Virus record (IMG/VR): IMGVR_UViG_3300047310_000200
Coordinates: 1 to 39,170 of that record
Length of the DNA stretch: 39,170 bases
Origin: a virus
Reading direction: 5' to 3' (one strand)
Below, piece after piece: positions 7,074 to 32,299 of the stretch. Numbering within the stretch: the first letter of the stretch is position 1; the number at the start of each line of letters is the position of its first letter. The translations under genes and the position numbers were made by a program. Below the pieces are notes generated by a model. It saw only the letters and a program-made list of their open reading frames with translations. It was not told the origin of the DNA and searched no databases.

Positions 7074-7318
7074 TTGACCACCCTCGATGGGCCTTCTATA
7101 GTAATTATGACATTATCTCCAACATTTAAGTCAGGTTTTTCATATCCTATGAAAAGGCTCTCCCAACTTCCTTCAAGATGTATAAACCAACCTATACTTA
7201 TCTTTTCAAACTTAGATGTATCACCATGACCACTAAGCCATTTTTCCCGGAAACGTTCCTCAATTCTCTTTAGTTTCGCTCCAAACTTAATTTTCACTGG
7301 AGGGCTAATGGATATCAT
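7070..7318 (-). CDS. Unknown small protein in the modification block
   Basis: An 82-residue protein, not recognised. It is mostly beta-strand with a basic helix (KLKRIEERFREKWLSG) and ends NVGDNVIITIEGPSRVVK. I start it at MISISPPVKI, whose ATG overlaps the preceding stop by ATGA and has GAAGGG upstream; a longer form from 7342 is possible. Its own stop overlaps the HD nucleotidase start by ATGA. Tight coupling on both sides suggests a part in the same pathway. Confidence 0.5.
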   Translation of the reverse strand: MISISPPVKIKFGAKLKRIEERFREKWLSGHGDTSKFEKISIGWFIHLEGSWESLFIGYEKPDLNVGDNVIITIEGPSRVVK

Positions 7319-8340
7319 TGTTTTTCCCTTCTTAATAACCATTCTTTACCTGCTTTTCGCCAGTCATGTGCTGTGACTCTTTGTATTACTTCAAGAGCTT
7401 TTTTCATATCTTTATTCTTATACAATTGATGTGCCAAAGCCATTGGAAGAATAGTATCTCTTAGAAACTGGTTAGAAAGATTACCATCGTAGTATTCTTT
7501 ATTTCTATGTATCCCATGGATCCAATCCATTGTTTCTTCTAAATCTTTGTCGAACACTCCTGGATGATTGATCAGTGGTTGAGTTGATCCATATTGCTCA
7601 ATTCCAGCACCAAGATGACCAGCATAGTTGACGTCAATAGTAATTTCTTCATCACCTACAATCCGCTTACGAAACATTTGAATATGAGATTCATACAAAT
7701 GTAAGTTAGTCGAAACTTGCCAATATGACCCTATCTTAATTCCTATCATACTCGCAATATATTCTTGCATAATAGCGAAATGAACTGCATTCGCCCCACA
7801 ACATCCCCAAATTAAATCGTTTGACCGATTAAACACAGTCATATCAAGGCAATCTTCGCGTATACGGAATGTAGCTACAAGATTACAAGCACGAGCTTTA
7901 TCAGCTAACAAATCATCACGCCCTGCTCCCCACATCTGCAACACACATTGACGTGAAGATGGATTTAATCGTAATTGCCGAATAATTTCTAAAAGTTGAT
8001 CGTAACCTAATGCATATCTCCATCTATATCCATATGCATCTGGAATTTTTCCATTAATTCCAAAATCCTTACTGAAATTCTTTATGTAATGATCTAAAAA
8101 CGCACCGTCATTCCTCCCGGACAACATCCACATGGCTTCCATAAGGTGAAAGAATGGATTTGCGTCTCTGACCGGGTTGGTAAGGACGTGTTGCTTCGGG
8201 TTTTGATACCTGATAGCTACAGGAATCTGCGCGACTAAAGCAGGTCCTACTCTAGTATTTTCTTTTTTACCATAATCTATCAAATAGCTTATAGCACGAG
8301 GCAGAGCGTCGCAAACATTGACAGCGTCAATCACGTACAT
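7315..8340 (-). CDS. Thymidylate synthase family enzyme (dUMP methylase or hydroxymethylase)
   Basis: A 341-residue enzyme starting at MYVIDAVNV, chosen because GGAAGGG precedes that ATG; a form from 8373 lacks a good site. Family landmarks: DAYGYRWR near 101-108, the likely nucleophile C152 in RACNLVATF, NRSND (171-175, matching QRSCD of ThyA), N184 in CCGANAVHF, and NLHLYESH (212-219). Retaining Asn rather than the Asp of dCMP hydroxymethylases suggests a dUMP substrate. It may make dTMP or 5-hydroxymethyl-dUMP. The neighbours favour the second, but this is inference. Confidence 0.75.
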   Translation of the reverse strand: MYVIDAVNVCDALPRAISYLIDYGKKENTRVGPALVAQIPVAIRYQNPKQHVLTNPVRDANPFFHLMEAMWMLSGRNDGAFLDHYIKNFSKDFGINGKIPDAYGYRWRYALGYDQLLEIIRQLRLNPSSRQCVLQMWGAGRDDLLADKARACNLVATFRIREDCLDMTVFNRSNDLIWGCCGANAVHFAIMQEYIASMIGIKIGSYWQVSTNLHLYESHIQMFRKRIVGDEEITIDVNYAGHLGAGIEQYGSTQPLINHPGVFDKDLEETMDWIHGIHRNKEYYDGNLSNQFLRDTILPMALAHQLYKNKDMKKALEVIQRVTAHDWRKAGKEWLLRREKQ

Positions 8341-9173
8341 TGCGATTTCCCTTCCTGATAAGCCGCTTGCCACTGTATATTCACATCACTTCGTTCTTCC
8401 CAATCTTTCCAAACTGTGCCTGCGGATTTCGTGACCACAGTCACAAAATTAGGATGAAGTTCTTTCAGTTTTAGTGCAGCTTTCATCTGCATTTCAGCGG
8501 TCCGATAGCTACTGCAACCACCTTCCGCTCCACTGCCTCGTTGATTCCAAACGTATTGAAAAGATACGCGATTTGGATAACCCTTGCGTAGTAGCTGTAA
8601 TGTCAAATCAAAATCTTCCATCACTGGAACACGGCCAAGTTCTACATTCAAGCTTTGTAATGTGTGAGTGTCGTATGCATACGCATTCATCATTCTGGTA
8701 ACATCACGATAAGTTTCTGGTCCTAAAAAATGATTACTGCCTTGACGAGCAGCTAGTCCAATATGAACAAAACCTTCCACTAACCATTGTTCCAGCGTTT
8801 GAAACATAGCTTCAAGTCGTTCAGCATCTTTAATAGTTTCTAGAGCAGGATCAGCCATGTTTGGTCTATAACAAAAGTCCATATCATCGTCCAACATCAA
8901 CACATATCGTTCATTGTGCTTTGCTGCTAGTTCAGTTAATATCCATTTCCTTGTATGAGAAATACCGGTATGACTGTTTGGAACATATTCAACAGTCATG
9001 TCTAGACGTTCTCCGATGGCTGAAAGAACATTATTTCGGTATCGCCTCCCTTCAGTTTTATCTTCAGGAATACATAGCGCGATCTTGCGCTTGGATTTCA
9101 TATCAACAAAATTACGCAATGTCACCTGTTTTTTCCAGTCCGGTCTACCACGACTTGGGATAGCTATTAACAT
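8331..9173 (-). CDS. TAGT-like DNA-base glycosyltransferase
   Basis: A 280-residue GT-A-fold glycosyltransferase. It opens MLIAIPSRGRPDW, has the metal-binding LMLDDDMDF (DDD 95-97) and the blocks VMEDFDLTLQLLRKGYPN (184-201) and GGCSSYRT (218-225). These match the TET/JBP-associated glycosyltransferase (TAGT) family of phages, predicted to add sugar to modified bases in DNA. It follows the 9174-10064 gene directly (TAG then ATG) and overlaps the synthase gene by 10 bases. Sugar donor and acceptor base are unknown. Confidence 0.7.
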   Translation of the reverse strand: MLIAIPSRGRPDWKKQVTLRNFVDMKSKRKIALCIPEDKTEGRRYRNNVLSAIGERLDMTVEYVPNSHTGISHTRKWILTELAAKHNERYVLMLDDDMDFCYRPNMADPALETIKDAERLEAMFQTLEQWLVEGFVHIGLAARQGSNHFLGPETYRDVTRMMNAYAYDTHTLQSLNVELGRVPVMEDFDLTLQLLRKGYPNRVSFQYVWNQRGSGAEGGCSSYRTAEMQMKAALKLKELHPNFVTVVTKSAGTVWKDWEERSDVNIQWQAAYQEGKSQCT

Positions 9174-10064
9174 CTACGCCACTCTATAAATCTGTCTTGG
9201 TCTACCCATTCCTAAACGAACCTTTTCATATTTACTCAATTCACAAAGACAGTTCTGAAGGTCTTGATTGTGGAGTCTTCCAATGCCAATCTCATTTAAC
9301 ATCGGTGTGACTAAATTATTCAGTTCTTGTAATTCAAAAAGCCATTCGCCCTTGGGCCATGGACTATCCATAGGTCGTTCCAGTACAATATTCAAACCTT
9401 TCATACTCCCAGGACCAGGACTTGCCCATGTCCACCAGTCAGAAGCATTCTTCATAAATGGTAAATACTTCAGATCAGCGACTAACTGCCCTCGCATAAA
9501 TGACCCCAATCCCTCTCCTAAAATCCATTCATCCATCATATGTAACGATGGAGGGGTATGAAGCCAATCTACCCACATTTGCACCCATTGTTTTTGACAC
9601 CATGCATGGAAATACTGAAGAACCCCATCACCTTTCGTGTGTCCTGTTCTTCCTTGTATGATAAATGCTCCAGTAACATGCGGAGTTGGAAGCTTCACCA
9701 AAATCTCCTGCAATGCCTCTATGTTATTAGTTCTGATGTAATGTTCAAATGGTGTTTGCTTTGTAAAATCTAGCTCACAGAAAAATGCCTCACACGTAGT
9801 CACCCGGTTAAACCAACGGTAGAGAACTGTTGCCGGGAATATATAAGGATTCTTTTCACCATAATGTTCCCGAATAACTTTTTGATAATTTTTTGATACA
9901 GCGTCGTCCTCTCTGTGAATATTAGTGAATCTATAAGCTTGTAGAATCATATCCTCAGTCCAAGGCCATGGTTTACCGGAAGCTCGGCGTTGACGGATAG
10001 CTTCCCTCTCTTCAATGAAAGCTACGAATCGTTTGATAGGGTTTTGGATATCTGATATGGGCAT
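9174..10064 (-). CDS. 5-hmdU DNA kinase helical-domain / aGPT-PPlase-like base hypermodification protein
   Basis: A 296-residue protein. It contains FIEEREAIRQRRASGKPWPW, then ILQAYRFTNIHREDDAV, a central SFMRGQLVADLKY, TWASPGPGSMKGLN and a C-terminal LHNQDLQNCLCELSKYEKV followed by GRPRQIY. This series is the hallmark of the helical, DNA-glycosylase-like family named 5-hmdU DNA kinase helical domain or alpha-glutamyl/putrescinyl thymine pyrophosphorylase, linked to thymine hypermodification in phage DNA. No P-loop kinase domain is fused here. Which clade it belongs to, and the exact reaction, I cannot settle. Confidence 0.65.
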   Translation of the reverse strand: MPISDIQNPIKRFVAFIEEREAIRQRRASGKPWPWTEDMILQAYRFTNIHREDDAVSKNYQKVIREHYGEKNPYIFPATVLYRWFNRVTTCEAFFCELDFTKQTPFEHYIRTNNIEALQEILVKLPTPHVTGAFIIQGRTGHTKGDGVLQYFHAWCQKQWVQMWVDWLHTPPSLHMMDEWILGEGLGSFMRGQLVADLKYLPFMKNASDWWTWASPGPGSMKGLNIVLERPMDSPWPKGEWLFELQELNNLVTPMLNEIGIGRLHNQDLQNCLCELSKYEKVRLGMGRPRQIYRVA

Positions 10065-10072
10065 GGTTTCCT

Positions 10073-11629
10073 CTATTCAAACAGACCAGTGAAGTGCCTC
10101 TTGCTGTCCGGTTGCACGATTATTAAATCTCGATAGGTTCGTGTCACTCCTGTGTAAAAGACTCTTGTTTCTTCATTTATATTTGTGCTTGTTGCCATTC
10201 TTTCACTTGCTTTGGCAGTTTCGGAAAGCATGACGACTGTGTTGGCTTGCCCTCCTTTCACTCGATGAATAGTTGAAATATGTATATTCGGTTTATCTGT
10301 TACCTTGAACCCATTGTTCAATACTTTTTGAATATATTCTACATCTTTAGGTTCAATTTGTACAAATACCTCATTCCATGTACCATCAATCAGTAATCCA
10401 TACTCATGTTTCAGTTGTTGCAATGAAAAATCAGGTGGATATTCTTCATCAGCTAAGTTAGACATTCTGGTTTTGTAACCGTAACTCACTCCCGGTTTTC
10501 CTTTACTGTGACCTTCGGATGGTAACAGATTATAAACGTGTACAATATCTGTAGCTGAAACTCGTTCACCTCGTTTTAATCTTTCCCATGCATCAATTCC
10601 CCTAGCAACCGGGAGTTTGATACTAGGATATTCAAAATACTGATACAACAATCCATGACCTCGGCAATACGGAATTAGTTTCCTACGTAACATTTTGATC
10701 GTACGACCTAACATCATTACACTACCATTAGAAAGCAATGTCTGTGGATTTAATTGTGATATTCCTGCTATTTGACTAACACTACCAGCTTCTGGTCGTG
10801 GTTTCCAAGCTTTGATACGACGTTTGATGACTTTACCGATAACCCTATTAGCGAGACTATGAACTGAAATTGGAACTCGGTGACTTTGTTCCAGAATATG
10901 AGTAGTCCCCGGCATTGTAATGAATCGTTCTGATGCTCCTGCCCATGTGAATATAGTCTGATCATCATCACCAGCGATATATAGTCGTTTCACATACTTA
11001 GCTAGCATGAAGACCATAGCCCATTGAAGTTCACTGAGGTCTTGTGCTTCATCAATAATTAATACTTCTAGTCGTGGTGGATCATTTGTCTTAATAAACT
11101 CTTGTAACATATCTGTAAAGTCATGTAGCCCTTTCTCCTGTTTATATTTCCTGAAATGCTGGATGCATCGCCATGCTCTATCATAATCAGGAAGTATGAA
11201 ATCATTTTCACTTAAAATAACTTCAATCGGTCGCTGCGTGATACGTGCGTAATTCTCAAAGAAAAGAATTAAATCATCACCATAAAAACTATTGTATGTT
11301 CCGTCATCGGACAAACTACCATGTAACTCATATCCATATTCAGAGCCAAAGTCACGGATGTTTTTACCGGAGAAAACTTGACTAGGTGTGAGTCCTAGAT
11401 GTCGAAATGCAGCGGAATGTAGAGTATTGAAATATCTGAATTTAGAGCGTGGTAGATTAAATCGTGTAGCGGCACGACTAATTGCTTCTTCAACTGCTCT
11501 CTTCGTAAACGTCATAAACCCAATTCGATCAGGAGGAACACCGCGCTCCATCTCAGAAAGCACGGTGTCCAGTAGTGTTGTTGTCTTCCCGGTCCCTGGA
11601 GGGCCAAGAAATATTATTGGTTCAATCAT
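10073..11629 (-). CDS. UvrD/Rep-like superfamily 1A helicase
   Basis: A 518-residue ATP-dependent 3'-5' DNA helicase. Motif I is GPPGTGKTTT (9-18), motif Ia MTFTKRAVEEA, motif II IIDEAQD (191-197), motif III AGDDDQTIFTWAG (219-231), motif IV HILEQSHRVP, motif V ISTIHRVKGGQANTV and motif VI VFYTGVTR. It is shorter than bacterial UvrD, as usual for phage forms. No DnaB-type helicase is seen in the window, so it may serve replication. The ATG follows GGGGATAAC; the conserved RNA element lies in its upstream region. Confidence 0.9.
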   Translation of the reverse strand: MIEPIIFLGPPGTGKTTTLLDTVLSEMERGVPPDRIGFMTFTKRAVEEAISRAATRFNLPRSKFRYFNTLHSAAFRHLGLTPSQVFSGKNIRDFGSEYGYELHGSLSDDGTYNSFYGDDLILFFENYARITQRPIEVILSENDFILPDYDRAWRCIQHFRKYKQEKGLHDFTDMLQEFIKTNDPPRLEVLIIDEAQDLSELQWAMVFMLAKYVKRLYIAGDDDQTIFTWAGASERFITMPGTTHILEQSHRVPISVHSLANRVIGKVIKRRIKAWKPRPEAGSVSQIAGISQLNPQTLLSNGSVMMLGRTIKMLRRKLIPYCRGHGLLYQYFEYPSIKLPVARGIDAWERLKRGERVSATDIVHVYNLLPSEGHSKGKPGVSYGYKTRMSNLADEEYPPDFSLQQLKHEYGLLIDGTWNEVFVQIEPKDVEYIQKVLNNGFKVTDKPNIHISTIHRVKGGQANTVVMLSETAKASERMATSTNINEETRVFYTGVTRTYRDLIIVQPDSKRHFTGLFE

Positions 11630-11642
11630 GTTATCCCCTAGA

Positions 11643-11795
11643 GGGTGGTGCGGCAGTCACATAAGAGGAGATGCTCTCATGCCCACCGCTGCGGACTGTT
11701 GTTTCCTAACCAAGGACACCTGTCCGCTGGTCCTTGTCGGAGCGCCCGCTCACCCACGTTACGAAAATGAGCGGCCCCCTCCGCAGGGGAATAGT
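11643..11795. ncRNA. Conserved pseudoknotted RNA element, copy A
   Basis: No gene fits here. The stretch matches 31605-31770 over some 110 bases. Shared core: GCTGCGGACTGTT, then a CAAGGAC/GTCCTTG stem (11711-11717 with 11730-11736) whose loop ACCTGTCCGCTG contains GTCCGC (11722-11727). That loop can pair with GCGGAC (11691-11696), giving an H-type pseudoknot. Copy B has CAAGGTC/GACCTTG, a compensatory A-U to U-A change. Further stems are CCGCTCA/TGAGCGG and CCCCT/AGGGG. On the minus strand it would sit between the SSB-like and helicase genes. Sense strand unproven. Confidence 0.6.
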
Positions 11796-12581
11796 TCAAA
11801 ATGGGATTTCTTTGTCATCACCTTCAGCGCCAGCAATCGGAGCCTCAGCTTTACGTTCGCCCCGTTTGACCGCAAGTGCGAAAGCTTTCGCGTGTTCATA
11901 GACAGGTTTAGGAACAAAACCTAGGAATTGGAATTTGAGTCCGAACCAATCACCTCTGGCGTTGCTTTGTGGAACCGTCGTTAACAGATAAAGTTGCGAG
12001 GTTGTTGGCATTACCTGTCCGGTCTTGGGATGGGTAAGCTGATGAAAATACGATTGCCATTGTCTTGCGAATGTATGTTTCGTCGAAGTACATGGTAGAA
12101 CGTAGGGATGTCCTTCCACCATGATATAAAATTCGCGAGTGTCCGAAATAATATTGTCCCCGAGCATGACGACATTTCGTTCACCACCATCATCACCACG
12201 GATTTTTCTGTTTTGTACTCCATGTGGTACTTCAGAATGTCGGGCAACGAACCCTTGTCGTTCTGGCAACCATTCAATCCAACTACGCTGCATCCCACAG
12301 GGAATAGCTCTGATGCCATCTAAGCCACTGCGAACAGGTTCAATCGCACCACGTAACCAGAAATGACCAGGTTCAGCATCTTCTATATAACCTTCACCTC
12401 GTTTATTAACTTGAGGTGAATTGCTTTGTAAGATATAGACCAACGGTAGAAGTTGATCTGCCGGGTCAAAACTAACCCCAAGACCTGCATCTTGTGCAGT
12501 AGTCTCGAGCATATCCTCAGGTATTGCATCAGATACTTCAAACTTATCAACCGGTACAGGTACGGGTAGGGTACTATTCAT
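11796..12581 (-). CDS. Putative single-stranded DNA-binding protein
   Basis: A 261-residue protein with a beta-rich body and a C-terminus ending AEGDDKEIPF. An acidic tail closing in Ile-Pro-Phe is the protein-docking tip of bacterial and phage SSBs, so I call it SSB-like. The body (PLVYILQSNSPQVN, GHFWLRGAI, YFHQLTHPKTGQVMPTTSQL in order) resembles uncharacterised phage proteins rather than canonical SSB. It sits directly upstream of the helicase, as expected for a replication module. ssDNA binding itself is not shown. Confidence 0.55.
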   Translation of the reverse strand: MNSTLPVPVPVDKFEVSDAIPEDMLETTAQDAGLGVSFDPADQLLPLVYILQSNSPQVNKRGEGYIEDAEPGHFWLRGAIEPVRSGLDGIRAIPCGMQRSWIEWLPERQGFVARHSEVPHGVQNRKIRGDDGGERNVVMLGDNIISDTREFYIMVEGHPYVLPCTSTKHTFARQWQSYFHQLTHPKTGQVMPTTSQLYLLTTVPQSNARGDWFGLKFQFLGFVPKPVYEHAKAFALAVKRGERKAEAPIAGAEGDDKEIPF

Positions 12582-26014: not shown

Positions 26015-26596
26015 ATGACGATAACCGACCTTAACACATACCGCGCTGAAAAGCAAGCCGACACGGCACAAAAATTCCTCACAATGTATCGGGGGAATGA
26101 ACGGGGTCATGGATGGGCTGATCCCAAGGGTGCTGTATTTGATACTCTGAAACGAAAATGGATATTCAAGCCTGGATGCTTAGGATGGAAATGGGGACCA
26201 ACCACGGTTGAAGATTGGGAAGCCCACTTTGCCGGGAATACGATGTTGGGCATTGGCCCACTCTTGGACGATGGGACATGTTACTGGGGATGTATAGACG
26301 TTGATAAAGTCGGCGATTTTACTCATTATGATTTTGATGTCGCAGAAATAACTCAAAAAGCCAAGCAAATTTGTTCTGCTTTTGTTCCCATAAAGAGCAA
26401 GAGTGGAGGATTACATCTATTTCTTCACTTCAAGGTGCCCACTAATGCGGGCAAAGTGATGGACGGATTGAAGATGTTTGCTGCCCGCATTGGGATTGCG
26501 GGGAGCGAAGTATTTCCTAAACAGCGGAAATTATTAGTTGAAGAGGGGGACGCACCATCATGGATATTCATGCCATGTTTCGGCAGCAAACGATGA
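26015..26596 (+). CDS. AEP-type primase-polymerase, N-terminal part
   Basis: A 193-residue frame with the archaeo-eukaryotic primase catalytic core: WGCIDVDKVGDF (D95, D97) and KSKSGGLHLFLHF (SGGLH 130-134), in the order of phage TOTE-like AEP primases. It would make RNA/DNA primers. GTAGGAGTGCA precedes the ATG. The frame stops at 26594 just after PSWIFMPCFG, where related proteins carry on; the continuation DDRENYMASDDDG lies in the +1 frame of the next entry. Confidence 0.75.
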   Translation: MTITDLNTYRAEKQADTAQKFLTMYRGNERGHGWADPKGAVFDTLKRKWIFKPGCLGWKWGPTTVEDWEAHFAGNTMLGIGPLLDDGTCYWGCIDVDKVGDFTHYDFDVAEITQKAKQICSAFVPIKSKSGGLHLFLHFKVPTNAGKVMDGLKMFAARIGIAGSEVFPKQRKLLVEEGDAPSWIFMPCFGSKR

Positions 26597-27767
26597 CCGG
26601 GAGAATTATATGGCTTCCGACGACGATGGCGATAATGAACATCGTGAATTCCCAATGGGACACAGCAGCCTCAACGACCAAGGAGGCGAATATTTACTTG
26701 AAGAACATCTTGCTATATTCGGCGAAACGACTACGACTGAAAATGTATTTGATAAACCTGATAAGGCATTTCAGCGTTCCCGATCCACGTATAAGAATAC
26801 CGGGAAGTGGATAGCGGAAACTGCGACGATCGAAGAGACGTTTAAAGATGGACCAATATGCCTTGATACGATTGCTAAGATCAATGCTACTTCAAATCAA
26901 CATAATTTCTTGGTCGATTGTGCAACGTTTTTCAAGAAGAAATACCCAGATAATTGGGATGAACCGATGCAATGGGTGAATGTTAATGTCTTACGACCAC
27001 CCGGAAGTCCAGACAAATTGAAGGAAATTATTCGTACTGTCAAGGATAAACAGTATTTCCCGCGATGTCATGAAGAACCAATGGCGTCGTTTTGTCATTC
27101 AAAAGCTTGCCGATTACAGAAATATGGTGTCGGTGGTACTGATACTGAAACTGGTAAAGATTTAGCTATGACGATCGTTAATACTGTTCCTACAACGTAT
27201 TTCGTAGGCAATGGTGGTGATGGTGATGATGGCAGTAGAATACGGTTGACTGCTGATGAACTATTAAATTTGAATAAATATCAGGTGAAATGTTTGGAAC
27301 ATGCACGCACTGGGTTTCCGGTTAATGTCACGGCTAAAGAATGGAAGAATCAAGTAATCGGCCTTATAAATGATTCAGTAATGATTGAACCGTCTGTACT
27401 GTATCGTAGAAATGTTAAGGAATTAGAGGCTTTAGAAAGATATTTTTCGGCTAATATTCCTGTTTGGGTTCACACTCGTGGTGAAGAATTTTTAAACGGA
27501 AAGTCAGGTGATAATGTTCGCATTCGTGTAAAAGAAGAAAAGATTTATTTTAAATGGGATAAATTAGTCTATTGGTTAGAAAAAGCATTTGGTATGCGTC
27601 AGCCTGGATTGGATAGTATGCGTGCGTATATTGATACTGAAGCGACATATTATTCAAGGGACCAGAAACGTGATTGGTTTCGGTGTAGTCATTCGTTGAG
27701 GTTTGAGGTCTTTGATGAGAATGTAATTTATCATTGGTTACATCCTGGTGAGCCTGAAGAAACTTGA
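26538..27767 (+). CDS. AEP-type primase, C-terminal part after a +1 frameshift
   Basis: A 409-residue frame. From about residue 17 (ANDDRENYMASDDDG) it continues the primase: a helical PriCT-like region, a zinc-finger-like PRCHEEPMASFCHSKACRLQ (C177, C186, C191) and a C-terminal TADELLNLNKYQ region. It has no start with a ribosome site (only TTG at 26538), so it is likely expressed by a +1 shift near 26576-26596, or the gene is broken there. The joined protein would be about 580 residues. Confidence 0.65.
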   Translation: MKRGTHHHGYSCHVSAANDDRENYMASDDDGDNEHREFPMGHSSLNDQGGEYLLEEHLAIFGETTTTENVFDKPDKAFQRSRSTYKNTGKWIAETATIEETFKDGPICLDTIAKINATSNQHNFLVDCATFFKKKYPDNWDEPMQWVNVNVLRPPGSPDKLKEIIRTVKDKQYFPRCHEEPMASFCHSKACRLQKYGVGGTDTETGKDLAMTIVNTVPTTYFVGNGGDGDDGSRIRLTADELLNLNKYQVKCLEHARTGFPVNVTAKEWKNQVIGLINDSVMIEPSVLYRRNVKELEALERYFSANIPVWVHTRGEEFLNGKSGDNVRIRVKEEKIYFKWDKLVYWLEKAFGMRQPGLDSMRAYIDTEATYYSRDQKRDWFRCSHSLRFEVFDENVIYHWLHPGEPEET

Positions 27768-27775
27768 GGCAATAC

Positions 27776-28294
27776 ATGAGTAATGATGGTTGGGGATTGC
27801 TGAAAGTAAGGCCACAGAACCAGATGAAATATCTGGAATATATGGTCGAATATCATCCGGGGTATGAGTTTTATTTTCCGAGGTATGGCCGGGTGACTCG
27901 GCCAGCGGGTCATCGGCGGACGAAAATTGTGCCGACCCCAGTGTATCCGGGATACGTGTTTGTCCAACTTGGCTCGGAACTTCGATCGTTATTGTCGAGC
28001 CCCATTCGTGTTTATTTCGTCCGGTTTACCGGGAGGTATGGCAAGGTTGGTCGTATATCGGTCGTTCAAGAGGAGGTGATAAATGAACTAAAGGCGAGGG
28101 AGCGGCGCGGCGAGTTGGTAGAGGAAGTGGTGGTCGAAAATCCGTATTTACCGGGACGTAAAGTTCGTGTAATAACTCCAGTCGCGAGCATAAATGGGGT
28201 GTTGGTGATGTGTACACACGGCAAAACACGAGGGGTTGTGGATACTGGTTTGGGGACCTGGGATGTCCCAATTCATCAGGTGGAGCTCGTATAA
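27776..28294 (+). CDS. NusG-like transcription factor
   Basis: A 172-residue NusG/RfaH-type protein. The NGN domain has GWGLLKVRPQNQMKYLEYMV, EFYFPRYGRVTRPAGHRR and VYPGYVFVQLG; the KOW domain is NPYLPGRKVRVITPVASING with VPIHQVELV at the end. Such proteins bind RNA polymerase and promote elongation or antitermination. ATG at 27776 follows the primase stop by eight bases. Being encoded beside the TGTACA array, it might act on phage transcripts read through that region. Confidence 0.8.
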   Translation: MSNDGWGLLKVRPQNQMKYLEYMVEYHPGYEFYFPRYGRVTRPAGHRRTKIVPTPVYPGYVFVQLGSELRSLLSSPIRVYFVRFTGRYGKVGRISVVQEEVINELKARERRGELVEEVVVENPYLPGRKVRVITPVASINGVLVMCTHGKTRGVVDTGLGTWDVPIHQVELV

Positions 28295-31063: not shown

Positions 31064-31180
31064 CGTCGTATCCCATATGTACAACGCCCGTCGTATCCAC
31101 ATATGTACAACGCCCGTCGTATCCTAAATGTACATCGGTTGTGCTGCTCGGCAATGCACGCGTCGTATCCTAAATGTTCA
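31064..31180. repeat. Four direct repeats of CGTCGTATCC-(N3-5)-TGTACA
   Basis: CGTCGTATCC starts at 31064, 31089, 31115 and 31161; each is followed within a few bases by TGTACA (31078, 31104, 31129) or TGTTCA (31175). The first three units are 25-26 bp apart. The 30860-31459 stretch has no gene. The shared TGTACA links it to the array at 28351-28578. Confidence 0.85.
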
Positions 31181-31354
31181 ACGGCAAAAGACAGTCATTT
31201 CGATTTGGGTCCCCTTCGGGGTATATCCCAGACCCAACGACGACGACTTTTCAACTTTATGATGAGACTCAAAAACCCCATCCCATCCACCCCAAACCCA
31301 GGATCTTTATTCTCAGACAATAAACCGCAAACCCAAACCCCACGCACGATGCCC

Positions 31355-31459: not shown

Positions 31460-31621
31460 ATGAAAATCTGTCCATGTTGCGGGAAACAATTTAGACCTAA
31501 ACGGAACAACCAAATCTACATAAACGCGAGGCACCGTTCAGCTCACTTCAACGTCCTCCACGATATTCCCGGTCAACTGCGCGCTCAACGAGCGACGAAG
31601 AAAGTAGTGCGGCGACCCTGA
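31460..31621 (+). CDS. Small zinc-finger-like protein
   Basis: A 53-residue basic protein: MKICPCCGKQFRPKRNNQIY, then INARHRSAHFNV, ending KKVVRRP. CPCCGKQF.PKR.NQ.Y is the usual start of small treble-clef-type zinc fingers, here with His residues later. It is the only rightward gene in a leftward region, so a local regulator is plausible. No strong ribosome site is visible. Its 3' end touches RNA copy B. Confidence 0.5.
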   Translation: MKICPCCGKQFRPKRNNQIYINARHRSAHFNVLHDIPGQLRAQRATKKVVRRP

Positions 31622-31770
31622 GAAGGATGCACTCATGTCGCCGCTGCGGACTGTTATTTTCATATGCAAGGTCACCTGTCCGCTGGACCTTGTCGCAGCT
31701 CTGGTCGATGCCCCTCTCTTGGGCATCTTCTGACCACCCGCTGCGCCGGGGTTGGGTGTTTATCTCCCGG
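31605..31770. ncRNA. Conserved pseudoknotted RNA element, copy B
   Basis: Homologue of 11643-11795. GCGGCGA/TCGCCGC forms a perfect outer stem. CAAGGTC (31667-31673) pairs with GACCTTG (31686-31692) around the identical loop ACCTGTCCGCTG, and GCGGAC (31646-31651) can pair with loop bases GTCCGC (31678-31683). A GATGCCC/GGGCATC hairpin follows. Base differences from copy A keep the pairing. It lies just downstream of the leftward 31803-32069 gene. Confidence 0.6.
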
Positions 31771-31802: not shown

Positions 31803-32069
31803 TCAAATCGGGTAGACCGGCGGTCCTTTAGGGGCACGCTTGCCACCTTTCTTCCGACGAGTTTCAACTCCACGCTTCGCCGCGTTGCTCCTAGCTTCCC
31901 CGGCCAACTCCCGCCTAAAGGTTTCCATATGCTCGGCAGGGATCTTGTCCTTGTGATTCTTGTAGCAGTTGAACTCGTGAGCCGTGAAGGTGTATTCGTC
32001 GAACGGGCGCAGAAATCGACCGCAGACGGCGCAGTCACGAGGAACTTTGAACTTCTTTCTTTGAGTCAT
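31803..32069 (-). CDS. Small basic zinc-finger protein
   Basis: An 88-residue protein starting MTQRKKFKVPRDCAVCGRFL, the ATG in an ATGA overlap with the previous gene. CAVC and a later Cys/His (HEFNCYKNH) make a probable zinc site; the C-terminus is very basic (KRGVETRRKKGGKRAPKG). DNA or RNA binding likely. RNA copy B follows it. Confidence 0.55.
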   Translation of the reverse strand: MTQRKKFKVPRDCAVCGRFLRPFDEYTFTAHEFNCYKNHKDKIPAEHMETFRRELAGEARSNAAKRGVETRRKKGGKRAPKGPPVYPI

Positions 32070-32299
32070 TTCATCACTCTCCATTCTTCGGGGTATAAGT
32101 CAACGACGATGCAATCTCCCGGGTGGACCGGCGCTATCGTTGGTGATTCAACTAGTGAACTTTTTGTGACAAAGCATTCCAGAACCTTGATAAAGATCCA
32201 CAGTCCTCCCTGAATTATCTTCAGGATAATCCCAATGGCGAGCAAAGCGCCGCCGACGCAAACCATGATAGCGGCCATGAGTAACAGAAATAGGGTCAT
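32066..32299 (-). CDS. Small membrane protein
   Basis: A 77-residue protein starting MTLFLLLMAAIMVCVGGALL, chosen for the ATGA overlap with the 32296 gene. One long or two short membrane helices (to about residue 38, LWIFIKVLE) are followed by a soluble end. Not recognised; holin-like and exclusion roles are both open. Confidence 0.5.
   Translation of the reverse strand: MTLFLLLMAAIMVCVGGALLAIGIILKIIQGGLWIFIKVLECFVTKSSLVESPTIAPVHPGDCIVVDLYPEEWRVMK

Follow-up and report, generated by a model that had tools for sequence, protein, structure and literature searches.

Two stretches of the virus record, copy A (11643–11789, minus strand) and copy B (31605–31749, minus strand), are with a probability of about 85% divergent members of the Proteo-phage-1 RNA family (Rfam RF03044) with a predicted pseudoknotted fold. 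The analyzed window was the entire IMG/VR virus record of 39,170 bases. Proteo-phage-1 is a candidate RNA class for which, to our knowledge, no function has been assigned; the class now gains a pseudoknot tested by covariation, and its placement among other genes offers clues that make its function testable. Also its range becomes wider, including divergent and possibly non-Pseudomonas phages, tandem copies and chromosomal copies beside metallothionein genes, and there is evidence that the Rfam model spans only a part of the RNA.

Homology and folding of the two copies

Both stretches are located where an earlier note had placed them. Their shared 12-base loop ACCTGTCCGCTG has just two occurrences among the 39,170 bases of the record, at 11718–11729 and 31674–31685. 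Aligned locally, copies A and B scored 114, compared with 36–53 in 20 shuffles of the window and with 44 for the best match of copy A elsewhere in the window. The cores alone aligned with a score of 78 (shuffle maximum 29). On these alignment scores copies A and B are homologous. Protein coding at the two sites was rejected, as the cores differ by a one-base indel and by compensated stem changes.

Folded as minus-strand RNA, the copies reached z-scores of −3.5 (A) and −3.9 (B), and in both cases none of 200 dinucleotide shuffles folded equally well. Judged by base pairing, the sense strand of both RNAs is the minus strand, as for the flanking genes and the Rfam model, because the G-U pairs present in relatives (e.g. 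L078, L235 and L103) would turn into A-C mismatches on the opposite strand. The base pairs given in the earlier note are correct, with minus as the sense strand. A DNA similarity search of phage GenBank records detected no relatives of A or B; near-identical relatives of both are carried by two other virus contigs.

Relationship to Rfam family RF03044

The earlier note had been unable to name a family. A permissive Rfam scan around both loci supplied a candidate, matching copy A on the minus strand to RF03044 (Proteo-phage-1) with an E-value of 7.5e-5 when 231 bases were scanned against all 4227 families. In a record-wide search with this single family, copy A matched the full model (positions 1–82) with 34.3 bits (E 3e-6; 11687–11789, minus strand, with hairpin P3 outside the model) and copy B weakly with 15.6 bits (E 0.06; 31642–31749, minus strand), and the record contained no further match. 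Neither score reaches the gathering cut-off of 42 bits, and a gathering-level Rfam scan of the window gave no match. Since the scores are under the cut-off, A and B are formally outside the Rfam family and are described here as divergent relatives. Our own sequence-only profile, built without window-type members, likewise found no match in the window.

The link of the copies to RF03044 is secured, at the level of sequence, via the intermediates L078 and L235. L078 (32.8 bits) has the same knot GCGGAC/GTCCGC as A and B and aligned with scores of 54 and 71, respectively. L235 is above the cut-off with 43.2 bits and scored 35 with both A and B (shuffle maxima 26–29); when it was aligned with A, B and L078 the scores were 35–45 (shuffle maximum 26–30). 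Copy B, the model match of which is not significant by itself (E 0.06), is linked to the family through its homology to copy A. Also the succession of an AGC...GUG loop in P2, an A-rich strand ending in AACA and then GCAGC was found in the RF03044 alignments. A search of viral contigs with the pattern AAGCCGGTTAGTGYC yielded a single RF03044 match (L076, E 0.015), which was coding-like and was rejected.

Architecture of the fold

The order of the elements is P1, P2 with one knot strand in its loop, an A-rich strand ending in AACA, the second knot strand, AGC and P3. Together, P2 and the knot make up a pseudoknot of the H type, with a stem 1 of 7 bp, a stem 2 of 6 bp and loops of 2 nt, 4 nt and approximately 14 nt, the last being the A-rich loop that ends in AACA and crosses stem 1. 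By analogy with known H-type knots, this loop may lie in the shallow groove of P2.

In copy A, P1 (11738–11783) has the outer helix CGGAG/CTCCG and the inner helix CCGCTCA/TGAGCGG, and P2 (11711–11736) is formed by CAAGGAC/GTCCTTG. The 5' knot strand GCGGAC (11722–11727) lies within the P2 loop and the 3' strand GTCCGC (11691–11696) follows the A-rich strand, while P3 (11644–11687) has the outer helix GGTGG/CCACC and the inner helix CATGAGAG/CTCTTATG. In copy B, P1 (31695–31744) is composed of GCAGC/GCTGC, GGTC/GACC and GATGCCC/GGGCATC, P2 (31667–31692) of CAAGGTC/GACCTTG, the knot of GCGGAC (31678–31683) and GTCCGC (31646–31651), and P3 (31609–31644) of GCGGCGAC/GTCGCCGC with the inner helix TGAG/CTCA. 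All these elements are on the minus strand.

The compensatory change in P2 claimed in the earlier note is real in A and B, and the pseudoknot it had proposed pairs in both. Two hairpins, P1 and P3, flank the knot in both copies and are retained with differing bases; P1 is an extended hairpin directly 5' of P2. The copies in the window mark out the minimal unit that is conserved.

Covariation of the pseudoknot and P2

The RF03044 model holds no pseudoknots and thus neither marks nor scores one. In an alignment of 19 diverse relatives, where most of the canonical rows had been gathered with a pattern fixing the knot as CCGG/CCGGC and L078 and L019 with one fixing GCGGAC/GTCCGC, the six base pairs that join the P2 loop to the strand preceding AGC were formed in 90% of the cells, and four of the six had double-sided compensated changes (C-G to U-A, C-G to G-C, G-C to A-U, U-A and C-G). 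The covariation score of the pseudoknot was 0.394 compared with 0.153 in shuffled alignments, none of 500 shuffles scored as high, and control positions slid by one to three columns scored from 0 to 0.08. The compensated knots GUCGG/CCGAC, GCGGG/CCCGC and UCGGUUGU/ACAACCGA, and likewise the variant GCGG/CCGC, are present in members recovered by the Rfam model alone, and this way of collection gives no reward for pairing at the knot positions. P2 was fully paired in 18 of the 19 relatives with varying bases, and its G-U pairs determine the strand.

The pseudoknot is strongly supported by the covariation among the 19 relatives. As the knot is kept by matching changes across many phages, the RNA is, on comparative grounds, real and of a functional type, in agreement with the earlier proposal of a functional RNA instead of a protein or DNA site. 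That proposal was to be given up if a wider alignment lacked covariation in the stems; the wider alignment gave the opposite result.

Genomic surroundings

Copy A begins 7 nt past the stop codon of a gene for a Pam3 gp34-like protein (11796–12581, minus strand; PF23977, E 6.8e-33) and occupies the whole gap from this stop to the ribosome-binding site that precedes a gene for a UvrD-type helicase (10073–11629, minus strand; PF00580, E 3.8e-26; phrog_1967). P3 ends at 11644 and the AGGGG..ATG of the helicase is at 11639–11627; copy A and both its neighbors share the minus strand. Neither a terminator-like site nor a nearby minus-strand promoter-like site was found near copy A. RF03044 was absent from 15 phages that share the gp34-like gene, and the RNA is therefore not tied to this gene. 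Adjacent genes for a thymidylate synthase homologue, a TET-associated glycosyltransferase and a 5-hmdU DNA kinase domain are located at 7315–10064 (minus strand), and this gene content suggests hypermodified thymidine in the phage DNA.

Copy B is located 3' of a small minus-strand gene (open reading frame 31803–32084), the product of which had no Pfam, PHROG or NCBIfam match, and about 750 nt separate it from the next minus-strand start. Past copy B, the minus strand has terminators. About 400 nt beyond this copy is also an iteron-like repeat array (31064–31184) with the shared unit CGTCGTATCC (plus strand), possibly iterons or operators.

On the plus strand the window phage encodes a NusG-like protein (27764–28294; PF02357, E 1.6e-4; phrog_6386 transcription antiterminator, E 2.1e-9), a relative of an elongation factor, and the gene is present also in the near relative G052. 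Two overlapping frames at 26015–27767 (plus strand) match parts 3–175 and 225–482 of the primase family phrog_21866, possibly reflecting a split gene, a frameshift or an assembly error.

Wider distribution of Proteo-phage-1 RNAs

The pattern of the canonical core matched at least 120 viral contigs and 13 genome loci, 12 of the latter in Pseudomonas or Stutzerimonas. RF03044 matches above the cut-off were found in all 50 phage records tested and in 12 Pseudomonas/Stutzerimonas genomes. One strong copy per phage is usual, and two copies, 43 nt apart, were present in one of the 299 sampled genomes (G184); these tandem matches (L236 and L238, contig 12, 285359–285566) have an 8-bp pseudoknot UCGGUUGU/ACAACCGA. 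In some of the contigs L171, L196, L136 and L120 a core-like motif lies inside long open reading frames, either by coincidence or as an RNA overlapping coding sequence.

An intrinsic terminator lies no more than 80 nt upstream of 52 of the 123 canonical loci listed, and no more than 20 nt upstream of 45 of these 52, compared with 2.5% of random places in the same contigs, a control that includes coding DNA and makes the contrast generous. A terminator is located 125–150 nt downstream in 31 of the same 123. Other canonical copies follow tRNA ends or stop codons, and the neighboring genes vary between phages: in phiAH14a the RNA separates the ninG/phrog_3373 genes from the late genes, in PS-1 it is within the early operon.

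A subgroup in Pseudomonas chromosomes has the RNA just past the stop codon of a prokaryotic metallothionein gene (PF02069, E 3.5e-13) in six of seven loci, the seventh beginning too near the edge of the fetched DNA. In six chromosomal loci (L085, L087, L089, L091, L093 and L095) the core is located 47–50 nt past this stop on the same strand. We know of no earlier description of this association.

The canonical members of Pseudomonas phages are about 200 nt long, and their conservation begins at the RNA itself. In L216 (5595–5840) and its relatives conservation continues for approximately 150 nt beyond the end of the Rfam model and takes in a terminator and a hairpin around GGAAAGA. Helices past the model (P3, a long P4 and P5) covary, one pair of P5 being present as G-C, C-G and U-A. 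No other Rfam family matched the conserved 3' stretch, so the 82-position model seems limited to the 5' portion of the canonical RNA.

Possible function

Both RNAs would be transcribed from the minus strand inside phage transcripts. With no adjacent promoter of their own, they would belong to longer transcripts as intercistronic or 3'-UTR segments, from which the RNA would be cut out or in which it would be left as a stable folded unit, and its most likely mode of action would be in trans, either as a small RNA or as the RNA component of a small RNP. Production from longer transcripts is suggested by the position immediately behind other genes and the lack of a conserved promoter, and work away from the site of origin by the diverse neighbors and by the terminator that ends some canonical members. 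Such a co-transcribed, trans-acting structured RNA is our leading guess, at somewhat less than even odds, and the placement fits also cis-acting roles. A broader and tentative proposal is that Proteo-phage-1 could be the knotted domain at the 5' end of an RNA of about 200 nt that acts in trans or modifies the polymerase and is used by phages and some Pseudomonas chromosomes, the window having two minimal versions that show its essential part (P1, the knot and P3).

The main rival to a trans-acting RNA is a cis antitermination element comparable to HK022 put or lambda nut, in which the nascent RNA would bind RNA polymerase and cause terminator read-through in two operons, perhaps with participation of the phage NusG-like protein. 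The twin copies in separate minus-strand gene runs, the NusG-like antiterminator encoded by the window phage, the positions in phiAH14a and PS-1, and the downstream terminators at 125–150 nt are all in line with it. However, many canonical copies come after a terminator and not before one, copy A has no terminator nearby, one strong copy per phage is the usual number, and some copies are 3' of a chromosomal metallothionein gene. Furthermore, the 29 phage records with a canonical RNA that were checked (27 contigs from IMG/VR, phiAH14a and PS-1; the lineage of the window excluded) contained no NusG-like protein, and a link between the RNA and this protein is unsupported outside that lineage. We regard antitermination as possible but rather unlikely.

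The position of the RNA immediately behind a stop codon, a tRNA end or a terminator would suit also a block that stabilizes or processes the 3' ends of the upstream messages, either an exonuclease barrier or an RNase site, with no function in trans. In the canonical members, however, long single-stranded stretches that are conserved, together with additional domains, exceed the needs of a barrier, which makes this explanation improbable. A cis leader controlling the translation of the next gene, in copy A that of the UvrD helicase, is somewhat more doubtful: P3 of copy A is directly 5' of the helicase ribosome-binding site, but the next minus-strand start is about 750 nt from copy B, and canonical members precede diverse genes, often past a terminator.

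The earlier note had considered also a ribozyme or a packaging-type RNA, and no such known family was matched at E-values up to 10. A self-cleaving ribozyme would agree with the compact knotted fold and its conserved unpaired bases but is very unlikely, as no ribozyme covariance model matched at E-values up to 10, and an element acting as DNA (origin, packaging or recombination hairpin), suggested by the repeat array near copy B, is least credible of all, given that G-U pairs are conserved on just one strand, that an H-type knot and an A-rich loop are typical of RNA, and that copy A has no repeats nearby.

Comparison with known systems

The window RNAs share with the canonical Proteo-phage-1 (RF03044) members the occurrence in phages, the strand and the order of P1, the P2 loop AGC...GUG, the A-rich strand, AACA and GCAGC, and their knot is in register with the canonical GCCGG/CCGGC. 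They differ in scoring under the cut-off, in the letters of P1 and the knot, and in being present as two copies per genome among replication genes, and no trace of the long 3' domain of the canonical Pseudomonas members was found in them. With the lambda 6S or late-leader RNA the canonical members have in common the location between the nin region and the late genes and, in some, a terminator at the end, but they have no conserved promoter at the start and the window copies are placed elsewhere. The HK022 put and lambda nut sites are structured RNA segments present as two copies in separate phage operons. Unlike them, the window RNAs are pseudoknotted, have no put-like arrangement of promoter and terminator, and have relatives that often follow a terminator; like them, they are structured RNAs of which the phage has two copies in separate operons.
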